NCBI GenBank assembly: GCA_023129115.1
Contig: JAGMCR010000001.1
Span: forward strand, 1 to 64,000
Reading direction: 5' to 3'
Length of the DNA: 64,000 nucleotides
DNA from: Candidatus Iainarchaeum sp.
GTDB lineage: Archaea; B1Sed10-29; WALL01
Made by a program: the position numbers and the translations under genes. The notes beneath the pieces were generated by a model, which saw nothing but the letters and a program-made list of their open reading frames with translations, was not told where the DNA came from and did no database searches. Positions 43,857 through 52,095 of this stretch are shown here, one piece after another; the stretch's first letter is position 1; each line of letters begins with the position of its first letter.

Positions 43857-44132
43857 ATGAAGCGAGCGCACTTGATTATTTCCGGTAGGGTACAAGGAGT
43901 GTTCTACCGCGCAGCTGTCCGCGACGCCGCGAGAGAATTCGACGTAACCGGCTTTGTCCGCAATTGCGCGGACGGCACTGTCGAAGTGGTGGCCGAGGGC
44001 GACGACGAAGAAGTAAAGCGGTTCGCCGAGGCGTGCTTCATCAACGACGGCACGCGCATGGCGGCCTCGATGGAAAAAGACTTCAGCGACATCGAAAAGC
44101 GGGAATACAGCGATTTCTCGATAACCTATTAA
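43857..44132 (+). CDS. acyP: Acylphosphatase
   Basis: A 91-aa acylphosphatase, which hydrolyses acyl phosphates such as carbamoyl or acetyl phosphate. The catalytic signature is GRVQGVFYRAAVRDAAREF (phosphate-binding loop with Arg) and FVRNCADGTVEVVAEGD (catalytic Asn in VRN). The C-terminal FSITY strand closes the fold. The leaderless ATG is 27 nt after TTTTTATT. Confidence 0.95.
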   Translation: MKRAHLIISGRVQGVFYRAAVRDAAREFDVTGFVRNCADGTVEVVAEGDDEEVKRFAEACFINDGTRMAASMEKDFSDIEKREYSDFSITY

Positions 44133-44155
44133 ATCCTGGCTGCGTTAATTATACC

Positions 44156-46819
44156 ATGGCGAGAGCGGGCTATGCGAAGAGGGTGTCCACCCACCTCCGC
44201 AAGCGGATGAAAAAGCGCGAATTCTACAACTGGGACCGGCACTACGAAGCAGGGCGGATTGCGAATTCACTCGACAAGAAAGAGATGCCCCGCACGCTCG
44301 TCAAGGCCATTGACTACGTCGAGGACCAGAAGCTCTTGGCATCCCTCGTCTCCCATTCCAGCCCCGCAGTAAGAAAAAGAGCCGTTCTTAAGCTCGACTT
44401 GCCCGGTGAGGAGCACATCCAAAAGGCGCTTGAACAGGCAGCCGTTGACACGATCCCCAGTGTCAGGGCAATGGCTGTAATCAAGGCACGCCACTTGTTG
44501 CGTAATCACTATTTCCCTTACCTGGTCAACCTCATCGAGAACGCAGCCAGCGACCGCAGCAAGGAAGTCCGCGTCCAGGCAGACGACGCGCTTAAGACAA
44601 TTGCCATAAAGAAGCCAGTGTGGGAAAAAGCCACGGCAATCAAGCCCCTGGCCCTTAAGCTAATGGACGCCCTGAAACAAGAAGAGCTCTTCAACCCGCC
44701 TGAACATTACCCTGAGTCCAAGCGCCTAATAACTAATTTCGCGCACAGCAACAACGCCTACTCGAATGGCGCCCTCTCGTCCGTGCTCTTTAATTCCACT
44801 GGCATGATGATAACCGCTTCCGAGGGCCTCATCGACCGGCGCCCCGAACTCGCGAAAGACATAATCAAGTACGCCAAAGGCCTTTACGATTTATTCTCCA
44901 CCAAAAGCGTAAGCGAATTCTTTGACGAAAAGACGCTTAGTTTCAGCAAGCATGACCTTGGCCAGCGGCGCATGGAACGGGAGCAGGCCGTTAGCCGCCT
45001 GGCAGAGATTGCAATCAAGACAGGCGACCCCGGCGTCGTCGAAAAGCTCCTCGAAATTCGTGCTGCGGACGACACCTCAGGCGACGAAAAGGAGTATGCA
45101 GCCATGGGAATTCTCGCGGCGAACAAGGTCGCGCGCACCAAACAAACACGCGCAGCAGTGAACTCCTTGTCCCCAAAAGAGAAAGCCAACGCCTTGGAAG
45201 AACTAAAGCGCTGGAAGAGGATGGGGGAGCAATGGACGGCGCGCATGGCGGAAGCTGAAAAGGCACAGGAAGAGAAGCCCGTACCACCCCCTAAGCCAAA
45301 GCGCCTGTCCAGCAAGGAATCAAAAGAGATTGTGGCACTTGGCAACATGGGCGTAGACGAGGCACTTGGCCGCGCGTCTGAAGGCAAAATCTCTTTCGAG
45401 GACGCGCTCAAGGCAATCGAGTCCATACGGTCCCCGTATGCGGCTTCCGTGCTGTGGGACTTTTACGCCAATCTCTACCGAATGGAAAACCCTGAGTTAT
45501 CAGGGGACTGGCAGAAGGCCTACGGCATAGTGCCTTCTGCAAAAGAAGAGAAGAAAAAGAAAGAAGCCGCCCAAATGAGCCAATTCATGACGGCTTTTCT
45601 CACGGGATTCCAGCCATCGCCAGCGCTGCAGCTGCGCTTCAAAATTGGTGTTTCCCTCGCGAAGATAGACACCGAAGAAAGCCTCAAGCCCCTTCTCGCC
45701 TTGCTTGGGACTGACCTCCAGGCAAAACAAATACTCATCAACTCGGGGGAGACCGGCACCCACAAACTCAAGGAAATCGCAGGCAACGAAAAAGAAAAGT
45801 TCGAGAGGCGCACCGCAGCCATTTACTCCCTCACGGGAAAGCGGAACAGCCGGTTCCTGGTTGATCTCTTCAGCACGACAAAAGACCCACACATCAAAAT
45901 GTATTGCCTTGGGCAGCTGGCGCGTTCCGACCACGCCCTCTCGCCCGACCTCCTGCGGGAAGTTTTGTCAGAGGAGAGCCGCTCCCTTGACCCAAAGAAA
46001 GTACAGAAAATGGGTTTCCTTGACGGCCTCACGCCCAGCGTGACCACGACCGAGACCAAGAAGACTGAATCTGGCTATACCAGCACGACTACGCTCGGCA
46101 AAAAAGGGTACAACCCATTCAAGTTGACCAGCACGCACGCTGTTGCCACAGCCCTTCTGGGGGCCATGGCTGAGTGGGGGCCAGCCGAAGAGATTATGGA
46201 GAAGCACGCCGGCAACGAAGATGTTATGAAGTATGCTTCTAGTATCAAGAGCAGGGCGTACTCGTTTTTTGGTGTGGAGTCCATGCCCGACATTCCCAAA
46301 CGGGCCAAGCGGTCTATTGCAAACTCCCTCGTGAAAAGCGGAGAGACGCCGCTGGCGAAGGAGCTGGCCGAGGTTGTTGAGGCCACCGACGACCCCGAAG
46401 TAAAAACAATCGGCAACGCCCACCTGGATTCGATGGCACGCGCCCGCGGGGACGCCCAGGCGATGCTTGACGCGCTCAACATGACTGAGGACGAGAAACA
46501 AAAAGAGCAGGTCCAGCAGTTCCGCAAGGCCCTCGAGAACAAAAACTCCGTGATAACCACTTACACGCCCCCGAAATGGGCGCTACGAATTTTCAGGAAA
46601 GAGCTGGGTGAAACTTATTGCCGCGCGCACAACGACCACCAGTGGGCGGTCTATGGCGTTGGTGCTGAGGCCTTGAAAGGCAATCCCCACGCGCTCAAAG
46701 TTTTGAGGGAGCTCGGCCTGAAGTCTCCTGACGAGCACACCCGGAAGATGTCCAAGACTATTCTTGGCCACGTCAAGAAAAAGGCGAAGAAACAGAAGGC
46801 AGTAAAGGGCTCGAAATGA
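44156..46819 (+). CDS. Large helical-repeat (HEAT-like) protein, unknown
   Basis: An 887-aa soluble protein with no signal peptide, rich in paired amphipathic helices. HEAT-like units include LLASLVSHSSPAVRKRAVLK, SVRAMAVIKARHLLRNHYFP, FLVDLFSTTKDPHIKMYCLG and LAEVVEATDDPEVKTIGNAH. A charged linker (KAQEEKPVPPPKPKRLSSKE, near 370-390) separates two halves, and another lies at EEKKKKEAAQ. It is likely a protein-protein scaffold. Its last codons overlap the primase start (ATGA), so it is translated with a replication protein, hinting at a replication or repair role. No close family recognised. Confidence 0.65.
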   Translation: MARAGYAKRVSTHLRKRMKKREFYNWDRHYEAGRIANSLDKKEMPRTLVKAIDYVEDQKLLASLVSHSSPAVRKRAVLKLDLPGEEHIQKALEQAAVDTIPSVRAMAVIKARHLLRNHYFPYLVNLIENAASDRSKEVRVQADDALKTIAIKKPVWEKATAIKPLALKLMDALKQEELFNPPEHYPESKRLITNFAHSNNAYSNGALSSVLFNSTGMMITASEGLIDRRPELAKDIIKYAKGLYDLFSTKSVSEFFDEKTLSFSKHDLGQRRMEREQAVSRLAEIAIKTGDPGVVEKLLEIRAADDTSGDEKEYAAMGILAANKVARTKQTRAAVNSLSPKEKANALEELKRWKRMGEQWTARMAEAEKAQEEKPVPPPKPKRLSSKESKEIVALGNMGVDEALGRASEGKISFEDALKAIESIRSPYAASVLWDFYANLYRMENPELSGDWQKAYGIVPSAKEEKKKKEAAQMSQFMTAFLTGFQPSPALQLRFKIGVSLAKIDTEESLKPLLALLGTDLQAKQILINSGETGTHKLKEIAGNEKEKFERRTAAIYSLTGKRNSRFLVDLFSTTKDPHIKMYCLGQLARSDHALSPDLLREVLSEESRSLDPKKVQKMGFLDGLTPSVTTTETKKTESGYTSTTTLGKKGYNPFKLTSTHAVATALLGAMAEWGPAEEIMEKHAGNEDVMKYASSIKSRAYSFFGVESMPDIPKRAKRSIANSLVKSGETPLAKELAEVVEATDDPEVKTIGNAHLDSMARARGDAQAMLDALNMTEDEKQKEQVQQFRKALENKNSVITTYTPPKWALRIFRKELGETYCRAHNDHQWAVYGVGAEALKGNPHALKVLRELGLKSPDEHTRKMSKTILGHVKKKAKKQKAVKGSK

Positions 46820-47592
46820 ATCTCCCGTTCGGAATGCGTGCCTCCACCCTGGAGGAAAGAAAGCGATTCTACGAAGGCTTTGACTTGCAAAAGGCAACGG
46901 GCTGGATTGGCCGCAAAGTGGTCTATGTAGTTATTATCGGCCGCCACTCCGGGATTTATCCGCCGCAGTTCGAGGAAGACAAGAGCGTGCCGCTCGTGAT
47001 TGACAACTACAAGACCCTGGACGATGTCATGAAGTACGTAATGAAGTACCTGCCCGAAGGCATTTACTACGACCGGAATTACTACCACGACTTTTCCCTG
47101 TGCCACTCGCACGACTTGAAGGACGCGTGGGACTGGGACAACTTCGCGGGCCAGCAGCTCGCGTTCGACATTGACTCTGAAAACGTCACCTGCCCCGAGC
47201 ACGGCACGTTGAAAGAACGTATGAAGCGCGGCGAAGGCCTCTCGTTCTGCGAAAAAGCCTTCGAAATCGCGCGCAAGAACACAAGCAACCTCTTCGACGC
47301 GCTCACACAAAATTACTCGGACCTACGCATCGTTTTCTCGGGAAGAGGGTTTCATATACATGTATTCGATAAGGACACGATAACGCTAACCCGCGACGAA
47401 CGGAAAAAAATCGCTTCCGACTACCTGCGCTTCGGAATAGACCGCTGGGTGACCGAGGGGGAAATGCGCTTGATTAGATTGCCTTACTCGCTGAACGGCA
47501 CATCCTCACGCATAGTCACGCCTATCAAGAAATCGGAATTGGGGGCCTTCAACCAGGGCGATTACTCGGCTTTTTTCTCGCCTTCCTTGTAG
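46816..47592 (+). CDS. priS: DNA primase small-subunit-like protein
   Basis: A 258-aa archaeo-eukaryotic primase domain. Motifs: LAFDIDSENVTCPEH (the catalytic DxD and start of the Cys region), RIVFSGRGFHIHVFD (SGRGxH nucleotide-binding motif), and GEMRLIRLPYSLNGTSSRIV (third motif, basic). It is shorter than canonical PriS (about 330-380 aa), and the zinc-knuckle is reduced to a few Cys/His (LCHSHD, TCPEHG, FCEK), so it may be a primase-like domain such as those of LigD/PrimPol-like proteins. It is coupled to the HEAT-like protein and overlaps a small gene on the other strand by 31 nt. Confidence 0.82.
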   Translation: MNLPFGMRASTLEERKRFYEGFDLQKATGWIGRKVVYVVIIGRHSGIYPPQFEEDKSVPLVIDNYKTLDDVMKYVMKYLPEGIYYDRNYYHDFSLCHSHDLKDAWDWDNFAGQQLAFDIDSENVTCPEHGTLKERMKRGEGLSFCEKAFEIARKNTSNLFDALTQNYSDLRIVFSGRGFHIHVFDKDTITLTRDERKKIASDYLRFGIDRWVTEGEMRLIRLPYSLNGTSSRIVTPIKKSELGAFNQGDYSAFFSPSL

Positions 47593-47832: not shown

Positions 47833-48927
47833 ATGAAAAAGCTACTAATACTCTCGCTTTTCGTGTGCATGCTCACACTGTCCGCGTTCGCGGCACAGCT
47901 GAGCGACACGAACGACGAGCGAATAGAATACAGGTATTCTATAATGTACGCCCGCTCCGAGGCCCACCGCATTGGCATGGGCGCAGTGCTCGAATACCTC
48001 GGCGACTCGGTGACAACGGACCTCCAAGACGCGTACGACTCGTTTGTTGGGGCCTACGACGGCCTCGAGGACGCCGTGGCGGCAGAAGACTTCGACGCGC
48101 TCTGGGACACGCGCCTCGAAATGATTGACGTCGCGGAAGACTTCCGCACCGAGGCCCGGGAAATCCTCGGCGACGACACCGCCGCGGCACGCGCCGCGGT
48201 CGCGGCAGCACTCCTCGAAAACGAGGAATACCTCGCGTCGCTCGAGAAGGACGTGTACGACAACCACGTCGACCTAGTGCTGAACATCTTTGACAACGGC
48301 GTCGAAGTGTCCGAGGAAAAGCTCGCCGGCCTTGAGGAACAGGGCGCCGACACCACGGACGCCGAGGCTGAGCTCGACGAAGTCAAGGGCATGCGCGGCA
48401 CGCTTGAGGAAAAGCTGGGCGACGCGTACGACGCGTGCATCGGCGACTTGATTCTCGTGTGCGACAGCGACGAGTTCACTGACTACGTCGAGTACCGCCG
48501 CCAGACCCACGAAGGGTTCAAGGAAGTCGCGCGCCTCGCACTGCAGGCCGCGCACATGAACTGGGTCGACAAGATGCGCGAGCGATTGGACGCGGACGAG
48601 GAAAAGCTCCTCGCGCTTGACATCGACACCACAGAATACGAGGAAGACCTCGAAGAAATCCGTGCACTGCTGGGCGAGGCCGAAGCGCTTTACGCCGACG
48701 GCGACTTCGCGGGCGGCCGCGACAAGACCAGGGAAGCGCGCGAGCTCTATGTCGACGCGCTCAAGGGCATCAGGGAGGCCCTGCAGGAGGCCCGGGCGGC
48801 CGCGCTCGAGGCATCCAGGGCAGAGCGCGAGGCCAGGGCCGCAAAGAAGCCCAAGCCCACTGCGGACACTGACGATGGCACCACTGGCAATGGCACCACT
48901 GCCAACAACACGGGGGCGATGGCATGA
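47833..48927 (+). CDS. Secreted helical protein, unknown
   Basis: A 364-aa protein with a signal peptide (LLILSLFVCMLTLSAFA cleaved before AQL) and a mainly alpha-helical acidic body rich in Ala, Glu and Asp, ending in a Thr/Asn-rich tail. Two cysteines (ACIGDLILVC) may pair. Heptad-like segments (about 150-200 and 270-330) suggest coiled coils. Codons are strongly GC-rich. The stop overlaps the start of a small lipoprotein gene (ATGA), so the two probably work together at the cell surface. Confidence 0.6.
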   Translation: MKKLLILSLFVCMLTLSAFAAQLSDTNDERIEYRYSIMYARSEAHRIGMGAVLEYLGDSVTTDLQDAYDSFVGAYDGLEDAVAAEDFDALWDTRLEMIDVAEDFRTEAREILGDDTAAARAAVAAALLENEEYLASLEKDVYDNHVDLVLNIFDNGVEVSEEKLAGLEEQGADTTDAEAELDEVKGMRGTLEEKLGDAYDACIGDLILVCDSDEFTDYVEYRRQTHEGFKEVARLALQAAHMNWVDKMRERLDADEEKLLALDIDTTEYEEDLEEIRALLGEAEALYADGDFAGGRDKTREARELYVDALKGIREALQEARAAALEASRAEREARAAKKPKPTADTDDGTTGNGTTANNTGAMA

Positions 48928-49151
48928 AGCAAGTACTGGCTCTCGCGCTGGTCGCGTGCTTGTTGGTAACGGTTGGCTGTGTCGGCGGCAAGAAAGCCGA
49001 GGTGACGCCGACCCCGACGCCCGCGCCAGAGGTCACAGCGACGCCAACACCAGAATCAGTTGACGACGCGCCGGCGCTTGCCGACGAAGTGATTCCGGAA
49101 GTCAATATGGAAGACGACGCGGAAGACGTTGACTTTGGGGGGGTTATCTAG
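48924..49151 (+). CDS. Small lipoprotein
   Basis: A 75-aa protein: signal LALALVACLLVTVG with lipobox-like VTVGC (Cys19), then a TPTPTPAPEV linker and an acidic tail (NMEDDAEDVDFGGVI). It is coupled to the upstream secreted helical protein. It may act as a membrane-tethered acidic peptide; no family recognised. Confidence 0.6.
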   Translation: MKQVLALALVACLLVTVGCVGGKKAEVTPTPTPAPEVTATPTPESVDDAPALADEVIPEVNMEDDAEDVDFGGVI

Positions 49152-49156
49152 AAAGC

Positions 49157-49313
49157 AATTGGGGGCTATTCCCCGAGACCAACAGGGGGCTTGAAACCAA
49201 TGGGGGCTGTTGACAATTGGTCAACAGCCCCCGTGTTTTCGGGGGAGCTTGGCAAATCGCCAACACCCCCCTTTCTTTGGGTTGTTCCAGTCCTTTTGGT
49301 GCCACCCCCCCTT
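49157..49313. repeat. Hairpin and GGGGGCT repeat cluster
   Basis: GGGGGCT units at 49160, 49185 and 49202 precede a hairpin with 13-bp arms (GGGGGCTGTTGAC 49202-49214, GTCAACAGCCCCC 49220-49232) and loop AATTG. The centre ACAATTGGT is one base short of the CCAATTGG core at the other sites. GGGTTGTTCCAGT further right recalls TTGTTCCACT at 2.3 kb. No gene lies in this gap; the MscS-C39 promoter follows. Confidence 0.85.
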
Positions 49314-49368
49314 TTAAATAAAAATGCTTTTAAAGACCTTTGAGCAGTAAAGGACAAGAGGTATGATT

Positions 49369-50865
49369 ATGTCGGACTTATTCCTTGGCGTCAGCGTAAA
49401 CACATGGATTAGTGGAATCCAGGTTATTATAGTGCTCGTCACAGGCCTCGTGCTGTTGAGGCTGTTCAGCATCGCGAGCGCGCAGATAAAAAGGAAGTCG
49501 GCAGTGGCGAGGGTGTTCGCCAAGGCAGTCGACTACGTCCTCATAATCGGCACAATCTTTTTCGCCGTGTACTCGCTTGACCCGTCACTGACGAGCATGA
49601 TGGTGACGAACCTCGGCGGCTACATGCCCATACTCGCGTCCACCCTGCTGCTCCTGATATTCGGCATAATGCTCGTGAACCTCGTGATGGAGCTCGTGGA
49701 CCTTTTGTTCACAGAGATAAAGCTCCAGGTATACTCGAAGCGCTTGGGCGTCGACGAGTCACTCATAAAAATCCTCTTGCTTGGCCTGCGCCTGTTCCTC
49801 TACCTGATTGTGCTGCAGGTCTCGATGGCGCAGCTCGGAATCCCCAAGAGCGTTGTCGAGAGCTCGATGTCGGCAATCAGCTACGCGTTCGCGTTCCTCA
49901 TCGCGGCGCTTGTGTTCTTCGCGTCGAAGGACCTGGTGACGAACTGGCTCGCGGGCTTTTACCTCAAGTCCTCGCGCTTCCTCAAGATGGGCCAGCGCGT
50001 GTTCGTGGACGAGGCCGACGGCGAAGTCGCTGGCTTCTCCTCGTTCTCGACCCTCCTTGACACTGGCAAGGGCTACTACCTCGCGGTGCCGCACTCGCGG
50101 CTCGTGGGCGACGAGGTGCGGCTCAAAAAGTCGCGCTTCGAGCTGAAGACACTTGAGTCCATGCGCAGGCACTACATTGCACAGGAAAAGTCGCTGTGCG
50201 TGCCCGCGGTCATCAACGTAATCCTCGACATGTTCGGCTACCCGGTGAAGGGCGGGCAAAAGGCAATCGCCAAAGAGTGCAAGACAGTGGTGCCCGGCGG
50301 GACCAAGCCCGCGGACGCCCTGAAGGCCGTGGCCGACCTCACGGACAACAACATGCAGGGCCTGCTGGTCCCGCACAAGAACATCATCAACCTGCGCGAC
50401 GAGGTCAAGGCGTGGCTCGCCGAGGGCGGGCTCGTAATCCTGAACTTCTACAAGGCGGCGCTATTCCCCGGCGTAAAGCGCGACCAGAAGCACGCAGTGC
50501 TTTGTTTGGGCGTGGAGGGCGACGGCCTGCTTATAATGGACCCGAACGCCAAGACCGGCGGCGTCTACCTCGTGAACTACAAGGAAATGGAGCGCGCGAT
50601 GGGCCCGTTCGAGGGCGAGGAGAGGAGCTACATCGCGTACGCGCCGAAGGGCACCAAGGCCTTCTGGCGCATCCAGAACAAGCTCTACTACTCGGACCCA
50701 GTGCACTACAAGACGCTAAGCAAGGCGCTGGAGCGCAAGCTCAAGCAAATCTTCCGCGAGGCGAACAGGGCGGGCGAGGACGTCTTCCCCGAGTACGTGC
50801 GCGAGTTCCTTGACGAGTTCCGCTCCGCCGAAAGCGAGCGCATAGAGAGGCTGTGGAAGCCATGA
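49369..50865 (+). CDS. MscS-like channel fused to a C39-like cysteine peptidase domain
   Basis: A 498-aa protein. Residues 1-190 carry about five membrane helices, the last being the pore-type helix AISYAFAFLIAALVFFASKD. Residues 191-255 are an MscS beta-domain (LAGFYLKSSRFLKMGQRVFV, DGEVAGFSSFSTLL, AVPHSRLVGDEV). Residues 262-430 match the C39/papain-like fold: QEKSLCVPAVINVILDMFGY (Gln272 and catalytic Cys277), then KHAVLCLGVEGDGLLIMDP (His375 and Asp391). The peptidase would be on the cytoplasmic side. ATG 49369 has GAGGT 6 nt upstream. The stop overlaps the RimK-like gene. Confidence 0.8.
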   Translation: MSDLFLGVSVNTWISGIQVIIVLVTGLVLLRLFSIASAQIKRKSAVARVFAKAVDYVLIIGTIFFAVYSLDPSLTSMMVTNLGGYMPILASTLLLLIFGIMLVNLVMELVDLLFTEIKLQVYSKRLGVDESLIKILLLGLRLFLYLIVLQVSMAQLGIPKSVVESSMSAISYAFAFLIAALVFFASKDLVTNWLAGFYLKSSRFLKMGQRVFVDEADGEVAGFSSFSTLLDTGKGYYLAVPHSRLVGDEVRLKKSRFELKTLESMRRHYIAQEKSLCVPAVINVILDMFGYPVKGGQKAIAKECKTVVPGGTKPADALKAVADLTDNNMQGLLVPHKNIINLRDEVKAWLAEGGLVILNFYKAALFPGVKRDQKHAVLCLGVEGDGLLIMDPNAKTGGVYLVNYKEMERAMGPFEGEERSYIAYAPKGTKAFWRIQNKLYYSDPVHYKTLSKALERKLKQIFREANRAGEDVFPEYVREFLDEFRSAESERIERLWKP

Positions 50866-51740
50866 AGTTCGCGCTCCTGGCCGGCTCTACGAACTACAAG
50901 GAAGTAAACGAAAAGCTGCTGAAGGCGGCCGGCAAGCTGTTCACCGAAGCGGTTGAGGCGCCGTTCCCAGAAATAAAGGCGGTCGCGTCCAGCAAAGAAA
51001 ACGCAGTGATTTTCGGCGAGAAAAACCTGTGCGGGTTCGACGCCGTCTATCCCCGCACTTCTTCTCCCGACATTGAGTACGCGCCAATCATCCTGGACAT
51101 GCTGATTGACGCCGGCGTCTATTCCCCAATCCAGCCGGACGCGATTACCATCGCGAAGAACAAGTTCTACACCCTAAAAATCATGGCCGAGGCAGGCCTC
51201 CCGACGCCGAAGTCCGTGCTCATCACTTCGCCGCGCATTGTCGAGAGCGTCGTGAAAGACTTTGAGTTCCCTGTCGTGGTGAAGCTGCAGCACGGCATGG
51301 CCGGAAAGGGCGTCATGCTCGTGTCGTCGCAGAACGACTTCCCGCCAATCATTGACGCGATGGCGAAGCTCCACCAGACGGTCAATGTCGAGGAGTTCAT
51401 CAAGAACCCGGGCGAGGACCACCGCCTCTTCGTGGTGGGGGACGAGGTCGTGGCGGCGATGAAGCGGAAGGCCGTGAAGGAAGGCGAGTTCCGCACCAAC
51501 ATCACGATTGGCGGCAAGCCCGAGCCCTACAAGCCCACGAAGGAAGAAGTCGAAATCGCCTTGAAGGCCGCGAACACCATTGGCATGGAAATCTGTGGCG
51601 TCGACCTGATCCCGAGCGAGAAGGGGCCGGTGCTTATCGAAATCAATGACGGCCCGAGCTTTAAGGGGATAAGCACTGTCACGACCGTGGACCTTTACAA
51701 GGCAGTGGGCGAGTTTATCTTCAAGCGGGCTAAGTCCTGA
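50862..51740 (+). CDS. RimK-family ATP-grasp ligase
   Basis: A 292-aa ATP-grasp enzyme. Motifs: ITIAKNKFYTLKIMAEAGLP, FPVVVKLQHGMAGKGVMLV (ATP-binding Lys and loop), VEEFIKNPGEDHRLFVVGDE, MKRKAVKEGEFRTNITIGG, and GVDLIPSEKGPVLIEINDGP (metal-binding Glu/Asn). The family adds glutamate or other amino acids to ribosomal S6, cofactors or peptides. The ATG overlaps the stop of the MscS-C39 protein, and a RimB-type protease gene converges at the 3' end with an 11-nt overlap. Confidence 0.9.
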   Translation: MKFALLAGSTNYKEVNEKLLKAAGKLFTEAVEAPFPEIKAVASSKENAVIFGEKNLCGFDAVYPRTSSPDIEYAPIILDMLIDAGVYSPIQPDAITIAKNKFYTLKIMAEAGLPTPKSVLITSPRIVESVVKDFEFPVVVKLQHGMAGKGVMLVSSQNDFPPIIDAMAKLHQTVNVEEFIKNPGEDHRLFVVGDEVVAAMKRKAVKEGEFRTNITIGGKPEPYKPTKEEVEIALKAANTIGMEICGVDLIPSEKGPVLIEINDGPSFKGISTVTTVDLYKAVGEFIFKRAKS

Positions 51741-52095
51741 CCTTGCCCTCGCCTGGGCCCTTGTGCGTTTTTGACACGTCTATAACAAAGTTATTGAGTA
51801 TTATGTCGCGGCCGACCAGTATTTTGCACCTTGAGTGCCTGCGGTCCGTGATGTTGGCCTCTGTCACGTATCTTTTCTTGCCGATTGTGATTGCTGCTTT
51901 TTTGACCGCGCGGCGGTGCCCTGCAGAAGAGGCGCTCTTTACTTTTTTGTGGCGCAGCACGGGGCCCAGCCCCGCTTCCCTGGCGAGCGCGGTGTCTATG
52001 CTTGTTGTCTTTGCGCCGGTGTCGAACTTGGCGAGGGCCTTTACTTTTTTCTTGCCCACGAGCGTTACTTGCTTGAAGAGCCCAACTGTCTGCAT
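51730..52095 (-). CDS. RimB-type aspartyl/zinc protease-like protein (COG4067)
   Basis: A 121-aa retropepsin-like domain of the PF05618 family: KVKALAKFDTGAKTTSIDTA (catalytic-type DTGA), RRAVKKAAITIGKKRYVTEA, NITDRRHSRCKILVGRDIIL and FVIDVSKTHK. In bacteria RimB is encoded beside RimK and trims polyglutamate tails. Here the gene is convergent with the RimK-like gene, supporting a tail-adding and tail-removing pair. Confidence 0.9.
   Translation of the reverse strand: MQTVGLFKQVTLVGKKKVKALAKFDTGAKTTSIDTALAREAGLGPVLRHKKVKSASSAGHRRAVKKAAITIGKKRYVTEANITDRRHSRCKILVGRDIILNNFVIDVSKTHKGPGEGKVRT

Follow-up and report, generated by a model that had tools for sequence, protein, structure and literature searches.

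A mechanosensitive-type channel domain joined to a papain-like, cysteine-peptidase-like domain and linked to RimK-type ligases in small archaea

The window analysed here is a 64,000-nucleotide (nt) stretch of Candidatus Iainarchaeum sp. (contig JAGMCR010000001.1), and coordinates are positions within it unless preceded by a locus number. It encodes a single protein of 498 amino acids (aa), in which the membrane helices and beta-domain of an MscS-type channel are followed by a papain-like domain. The same fusion is found in ~47 other archaeal genomes, belonging to Nanohaloarchaeota, Aenigmatarchaeota, Diapherotrites, and other groups. Because it is usually encoded directly before an amino-acid-ligating enzyme, the fusion suggests that membrane tension is wired to an undescribed tag-adding and tag-removing system in several groups of tiny archaea. 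The gene linkage points to the chemistry of the partners, namely RimK-type ligation and retropepsin trimming, and the protein itself, conserved among archaea, unites a presumed mechanosensor with a presumed amide-bond enzyme. No earlier description of an MscS-C39 fusion was found in the open literature searched, a scope that leaves most subscription journals outside. The gene is composed as follows:

49369..50865, + strand: MscS-C39 fusion gene, 498 aa plus stop, uninterrupted frame
49369..50133, + strand: channel part, aa 1-255, about five transmembrane (TM) helices and then the MscS beta-domain (AlphaFold2 secondary structure, topology)
49930..50115, + strand: MscS beta-domain, aa 188-249 (Pfam MS_channel_2nd, PF00924, E=2.1e-6, above cut-off)
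50173..50646, + strand: papain-like (C39/C83-type) domain, aa 269-426 (Pfam, AlphaFold2, Foldseek, profile)
50182..50184, + strand: Q272, oxyanion-hole Gln, aligned to Alr0975 Gln64
50197..50199, + strand: C277, catalytic Cys, aligned to Alr0975 Cys70
50491..50493, + strand: H375, catalytic His, aligned to Alr0975 His183
50539..50541, + strand: D391, catalytic Asp, aligned to Alr0975 Asp201
50854..50862, + strand: near-invariant C-terminal W-x-P motif, where the protein of the window's clade terminates exactly

The initial annotation had described one 498-aa polypeptide with MscS-type helices and beta-domain up to about residue 255, followed by a cytoplasmic C39-like domain with Q272, C277, H375, and D391 in the expected order. 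The frame is indeed open throughout, and the channel half is confirmed by the PF00924 match and the AlphaFold2 model, which places the TM helices at aa 12-41, 45-70, 72-116, 130-155, and 160-202. Moreover, a profile matches residues 94-175 of E. coli MscS (E=2e-11) and ends at 175; thus the alpha-beta cage domain of MscS is absent and the papain-like domain stands in its place. The protein shares the pore helix and beta-domain with MscS, but differs by its five TM helices and this replacement. The conserved TM helix family PF05552 reaches 16.4 bits against a cut-off of 22 in the window protein, and relatives L031 and L038 exceed the cut-off. The distribution of positive residues over the loops fits an N-out orientation with the enzyme domain in the cytoplasm (positive-inside rule), as had been proposed. 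A heptameric state and tension-gated conductance are presumed for the fusion protein.

The papain-like fold of the C-terminal half is supported by profiles and by predicted structure. The window protein alone stays below the cut-off of Peptidase_C39_2 (PF13529, aa 269-393, E=0.041, 14.9 vs 24 bits), but its relatives L031, L035, L038, L198, and L200 exceed the cut-offs of C39 families, and the same set without L038 also exceeds that of the MscS beta-domain. Across 17 fusion members, Pfam detects the MscS domain in 15 and C39_2 in 13. The phytochelatin synthase family PF05023 has no match in the window protein, matches 6 of the 17 members at E<0.01, and is above cut-off in L200. The domain profile, without the use of any model, matches the primitive phytochelatin synthase Alr0975 at E 7e-5, the sole strong profile match in the PDB. 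The four residues named in the initial annotation were correct, and their register agrees with Alr0975: they align with chain positions 75, 81, 194, and 212, which after subtraction of a tag offset of 11 correspond to Gln64, Cys70, His183, and Asp201. They are invariant in group A1 and, judging from this alignment, would cluster in space.

Structure prediction for two family members shows both folds. The AlphaFold2 model of the window protein consists of ~5 long helices, a beta-domain, and then an alpha/beta domain (predicted local distance difference test, pLDDT, 75.6; predicted template modelling score, pTM, 0.49), with the papain-like region mostly at pLDDT 80-91. In Foldseek searches against the PDB, this model matches E. 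coli MscS (E 3e-6), and its C-terminal half has Alr0975 as the closest solved structure (E 8e-7; target template modelling score, TMt, 0.67). Further matches are the pseudomurein endoisopeptidase PeiR and the C39 domain of ComA (TMt 0.80). The second model, of L038 from an AR10 archaeon (pLDDT 73.3, pTM 0.43), again matches both sets of structures.

The proposed C39 identity stands as far as the papain-like fold is concerned, but the structure of Alr0975 (Clan CA, C83) ranks ahead of the C39 leader peptidase. Alr0975 resembles the fusion domain in fold and in the Gln/Cys/His/Asp positions, whereas it is a single-domain protein, not membrane-bound, with an identity of 16-21%. The C39 domains of ComA and PCAT are alike through the Pfam family match in most members and the fold of ComA PEP. 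By family, the fusion combines an MscS-superfamily member without the cage with a clan CA papain-like domain that lies between C39 and C83. Since Alr0975 is a glutamyl-peptide hydrolase/transpeptidase, ordinary proteolysis and chemistry on amide or isopeptide bonds are equally likely for the domain. The Pfam and Foldseek likeness to C39 domains would also fit a processing peptidase whose substrate is a leader peptide, as for the C39 domains of ABC exporters, or the channel to which it is fused. However, the conserved neighbourhood holds no ABC exporter, precursor peptide, or double-glycine leader, and its conserved genes are ligases, so we regard such a role as very improbable. The fusion is not a C39 exporter peptidase.

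Two neighbouring genes accompany the fusion:

50862..51740, + strand: RimK-type ATP-grasp ligase; its ATG overlaps the fusion stop (ATGA 50862-50865), alternative start GTG 50853
51730..52095, - strand: RimB/RloA-like retropepsin, 121 aa, Zn_protease PF05618 with a DTGA motif, convergent to RimK

The ATGA overlap supports the translational coupling of fusion and ligase noticed earlier. The ligase has an intact metal-binding GVD...EIN motif and is the only RimK-family gene found in the genome assembly. An ATP-grasp gene lies directly 3' on the same strand in all 42 distinct loci with downstream DNA, a count that includes the window's own genome and covers the four linked clades only. The ATP-grasp frame starts no more than 148 nt ahead of, and no more than 64 nt beyond, the point where the fusion frame ends. 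In 37 loci, all outside the window's clade, the fusion is followed by a tandem pair of ATP-grasp genes. The second of these (ligase B) carries D..E.N, that is GVD...EIN, in 20/20 aligned sequences, the window's clade included, and looks like an active RimK-type ligase. In the first gene, the D and E that bind the metal have been lost from almost every member, and it is likely a pseudo-ligase paired with the active one; L031:7526-8362 is an example, with orthologues in 40 loci. The retropepsin gene was absent from the initial annotation and completes a rim/rlo-like set at the window locus. It adjoins the single RimK ligase gene in 4/4 members of the window's clade, and reading its sequence by eye revealed no obvious signal peptide.

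Counterparts of this gene set are known from bacteria. In Pseudomonas, C-terminal glutamates added by RimK are removed by the retropepsin RimB, which also stimulates poly-glutamate synthesis (PMC11957791). In the window's clade, the archaeal set likewise has a RimK-family ligase adjoining a RimB-like retropepsin, both apparently cytoplasmic. In contrast, the known target of the bacterial pair is the ribosomal protein RpsF, and the archaeal set adds the channel-peptidase fusion. RpsF is not known from archaea. The Pseudomonas proteins RloA, RloB, and RloC are a retropepsin, a membrane protein with an inactive transglutaminase domain, and an ATP-grasp, respectively, and set hypo-osmotic tolerance; RloA cleaves poly-glutamate, and the inactive domain of RloB is assumed to have a non-catalytic, binding use (PMC12239564). 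All three components, including a membrane protein with a domain of papain-like fold, have counterparts in the archaeal set. However, RloB is a 7-TM protein whose transglutaminase domain faces the periplasm, and RloA is secreted (PMC12239564), whereas the archaeal membrane part is an MscS protein carrying a cytoplasmic papain-like domain of C39/C83 type whose triad is mostly intact. No Pfam match to the RloB transglutaminase or 7TM families was obtained in the window protein or the 17 members, and by family the fusion is not RloB. The archaeal set is an independent parallel to the poorly understood bacterial Rlo hypo-osmotic system.

Rim/rlo counterparts are present and MscS is the membrane part; on the most economical reading, these genes would form a system for adding and removing tags that is attached to a tension sensor. 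We give the whole of this reading, in which membrane tension tunes tag addition and removal by the channel-peptidase fusion and the RimK-type ligase, slightly less than an even chance. The fusion would be an MscS-type channel, membrane-anchored and probably heptameric, in which a cytoplasmic, amide-bond-cleaving papain-like domain has taken the place of the C-terminal cage. The partner ligase would attach glutamate or a related amino acid to some protein or peptide, and in the window's clade the RimB-like retropepsin would also trim the tags. Tension on the channel half may alter how far apart or how accessible the peptidase domains are, and thereby shift the balance between tag addition and removal, as a response to osmotic stress. 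The gene set is small, and whether membrane tension and glutamyl-type modification are connected could be tested in it directly.

A further reading is a tension-gated chanzyme, in which the opening and closing of the MscS-type pore switches a ring of cytoplasmic cysteine peptidases that strips the amino-acid tags of the partner ligase. We hold this reading to be rather doubtful; if it is true, protein or peptide glutamylation would for the first time be known to be under mechanical control, and several groups of small archaea would share a system of osmotic signalling. The initial annotation had proposed that channel state is coupled to proteolysis, which is plausible. Its account of the two folds, the residues, the cytoplasmic side, and the RimK coupling holds; the reading as channel-coupled proteolysis is complicated by eight losses of the triad and by the likeness to Alr0975.

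Several findings weigh against tension-tuned tagging. The two models are monomers only and of moderate confidence. The Cys and/or His is lost in eight Nanohaloarchaeal members. In addition, five full-length members (L198-L202) with intact catalytic residues have no adjoining ATP-grasp, one of which, L201, is on a contig that stops at the 3' end of the fusion gene. Each of these five genomes encodes a RimK-family gene elsewhere, and in G559 a pair of them lies ~7 kilobases off.

The likeness to Alr0975, both the nearest structure and the one strong profile match in the PDB, and the L200 match to Pfam phytochelatin synthase would also suit a constitutive enzyme. The domain would then be a phytochelatin-synthase-like glutamyl-peptide hydrolase/transpeptidase acting on a small peptide made by ATP-grasp enzymes, free of tension control, with the channel half as an oligomeric anchor. 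The bulky pore-lining helix (VFFASKD), as opposed to the Gly/Ala-rich helix of MscS, points the same way, as does a GCS2-type ligase gene immediately 3' in one locus. On the contrary, the MscS half is kept across very distant members, those with a dead peptidase included, and an unfused MscS shares the same type of operon elsewhere, which argues for a role of the channel itself. We consider the anchor explanation rather improbable. The GCS2-family (glutamate-cysteine ligase) gene, L035:9128-10234 in Nanohaloarchaeon M3_22, overlaps the end of the active ATP-grasp gene and extends the amino-acid ligation theme of the operon.

The unfused operons are in genomes of the Aenigmatarchaeota phylum that lack the fusion. 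Their MscS proteins end after the beta-domain and share one operon with genes for a retropepsin and two ATP-grasps; a C39 domain is absent:

L135:3329-6290 (G063): unfused short MscS operon, RimB-like retropepsin and two RimK-type ATP-grasps
L176:1722-4897: same arrangement
L177:2777-5939: same arrangement
L178:2314-5625: same arrangement

As fused and unfused operons both exist, an MscS channel is linked to the ligase/protease set in at least two arrangements. L169 and L170 (G136, G137) carry two retropepsin copies per open frame (221 and 253 aa) in tandem, pepsin-like, beside an ATP-grasp. A RimB-like retropepsin gene repeatedly adjoins a divergently oriented gene for a DEAD-type RNA helicase in the Aenigmatarchaeota phylum (L177:5951-7546, L180:4873-6429, L182:1694-3205).

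The triad is intact in 38/46 rows of the family tree. Only part of the Nanohaloarchaeota departs from this rule, every other clade having both triad and oxyanion Gln intact. The losses comprise one seven-member Nanohaloarchaeal clade and, separately, L041, and the starred branches force at least two changes. The triad-less members still have the fusion, D391, the tandem ATP-grasps and, with one exception, the W-x-P motif. Catalysis thus appears to be the ancestral and usual state of the papain-like domain, which, since the fusion and ligases were kept through the losses, also has a non-catalytic role. In triad-less lineages, the domain may bind only the tagged substrate or the ligase. These losses would also suit a domain that mainly serves for binding, as proposed for RloB, and that brings the ligase, or what the ligase makes, to the channel, with residual catalysis secondary and with glutamylation directly regulating gating, possibly on the conserved C-terminal WKP tail of the channel. 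The conserved W-x-P motif and acidic tails of many members agree with it, and RimK enzymes act on C-termini (PMC12239564). However, most members keep both triad and oxyanion Gln, and this purifying selection on the catalytic residues favours catalysis; taken jointly, binding and gating by glutamylation seem unlikely. In ten fusion proteins of two phyla (L031-L034, L041, L043, L088, L091, L092, L095), W-x-P is followed by an acidic C-terminal tail that contains an L[DN]EF motif.

The search for the fusion in other archaea recovered it in several groups at uneven frequency. Full-length fusions are present in 4/19 genomes of the window's phylum, ~24/28 Nanohaloarchaeota, 11/87 genomes of the AR10 phylum, one genus among 156 Aenigmatarchaeota-type genomes, and five genomes of four further archaeal families (L198-L202). 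A scan of 84,980 prokaryote species with conserved peptide patterns returned archaea only, although the pattern method may miss distant bacterial cases. Standalone C39 proteins occur in L137-L139, and a Pfam scan of L137 and L138 showed unrelated neighbours there. Full-length relatives are 30-65% identical to the window protein, and those with 65% identity exclude a chance or artefactual open reading frame. An assembly error is also ruled out by an identical junction in many assemblies, including the complete genomes CP046106 and CP010424. PADLOC gave no match to anti-phage defence, and a weak NCBIfam match to HalA (E 0.2) spans the N-terminal membrane segment only. Viral origin was likewise rejected, since BFVD matches are restricted to the separate domains, and the locus has no Rfam match that would indicate an RNA element.

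The start codon at 49369 is preceded by a Shine-Dalgarno-like GAGG at a proper spacing of ~7 nt, whereas the alternative in-frame ATG at 49363 is too near to it. One further element lies upstream:

49312..49320, + strand: putative TATA-like element, TTTTAAATA, ~50 nt 5' of the start codon

The genes at 47833-49151 encode a secreted-looking coiled-coil protein (364 aa) and then a lipoprotein-like protein (75 aa), with no family match; they are not found near related fusions and were rejected as part of the system. Farther upstream, a large HEAT-repeat protein (43964-46819) is encoded directly 5' of a primase-small-subunit-like gene (46816-47592).
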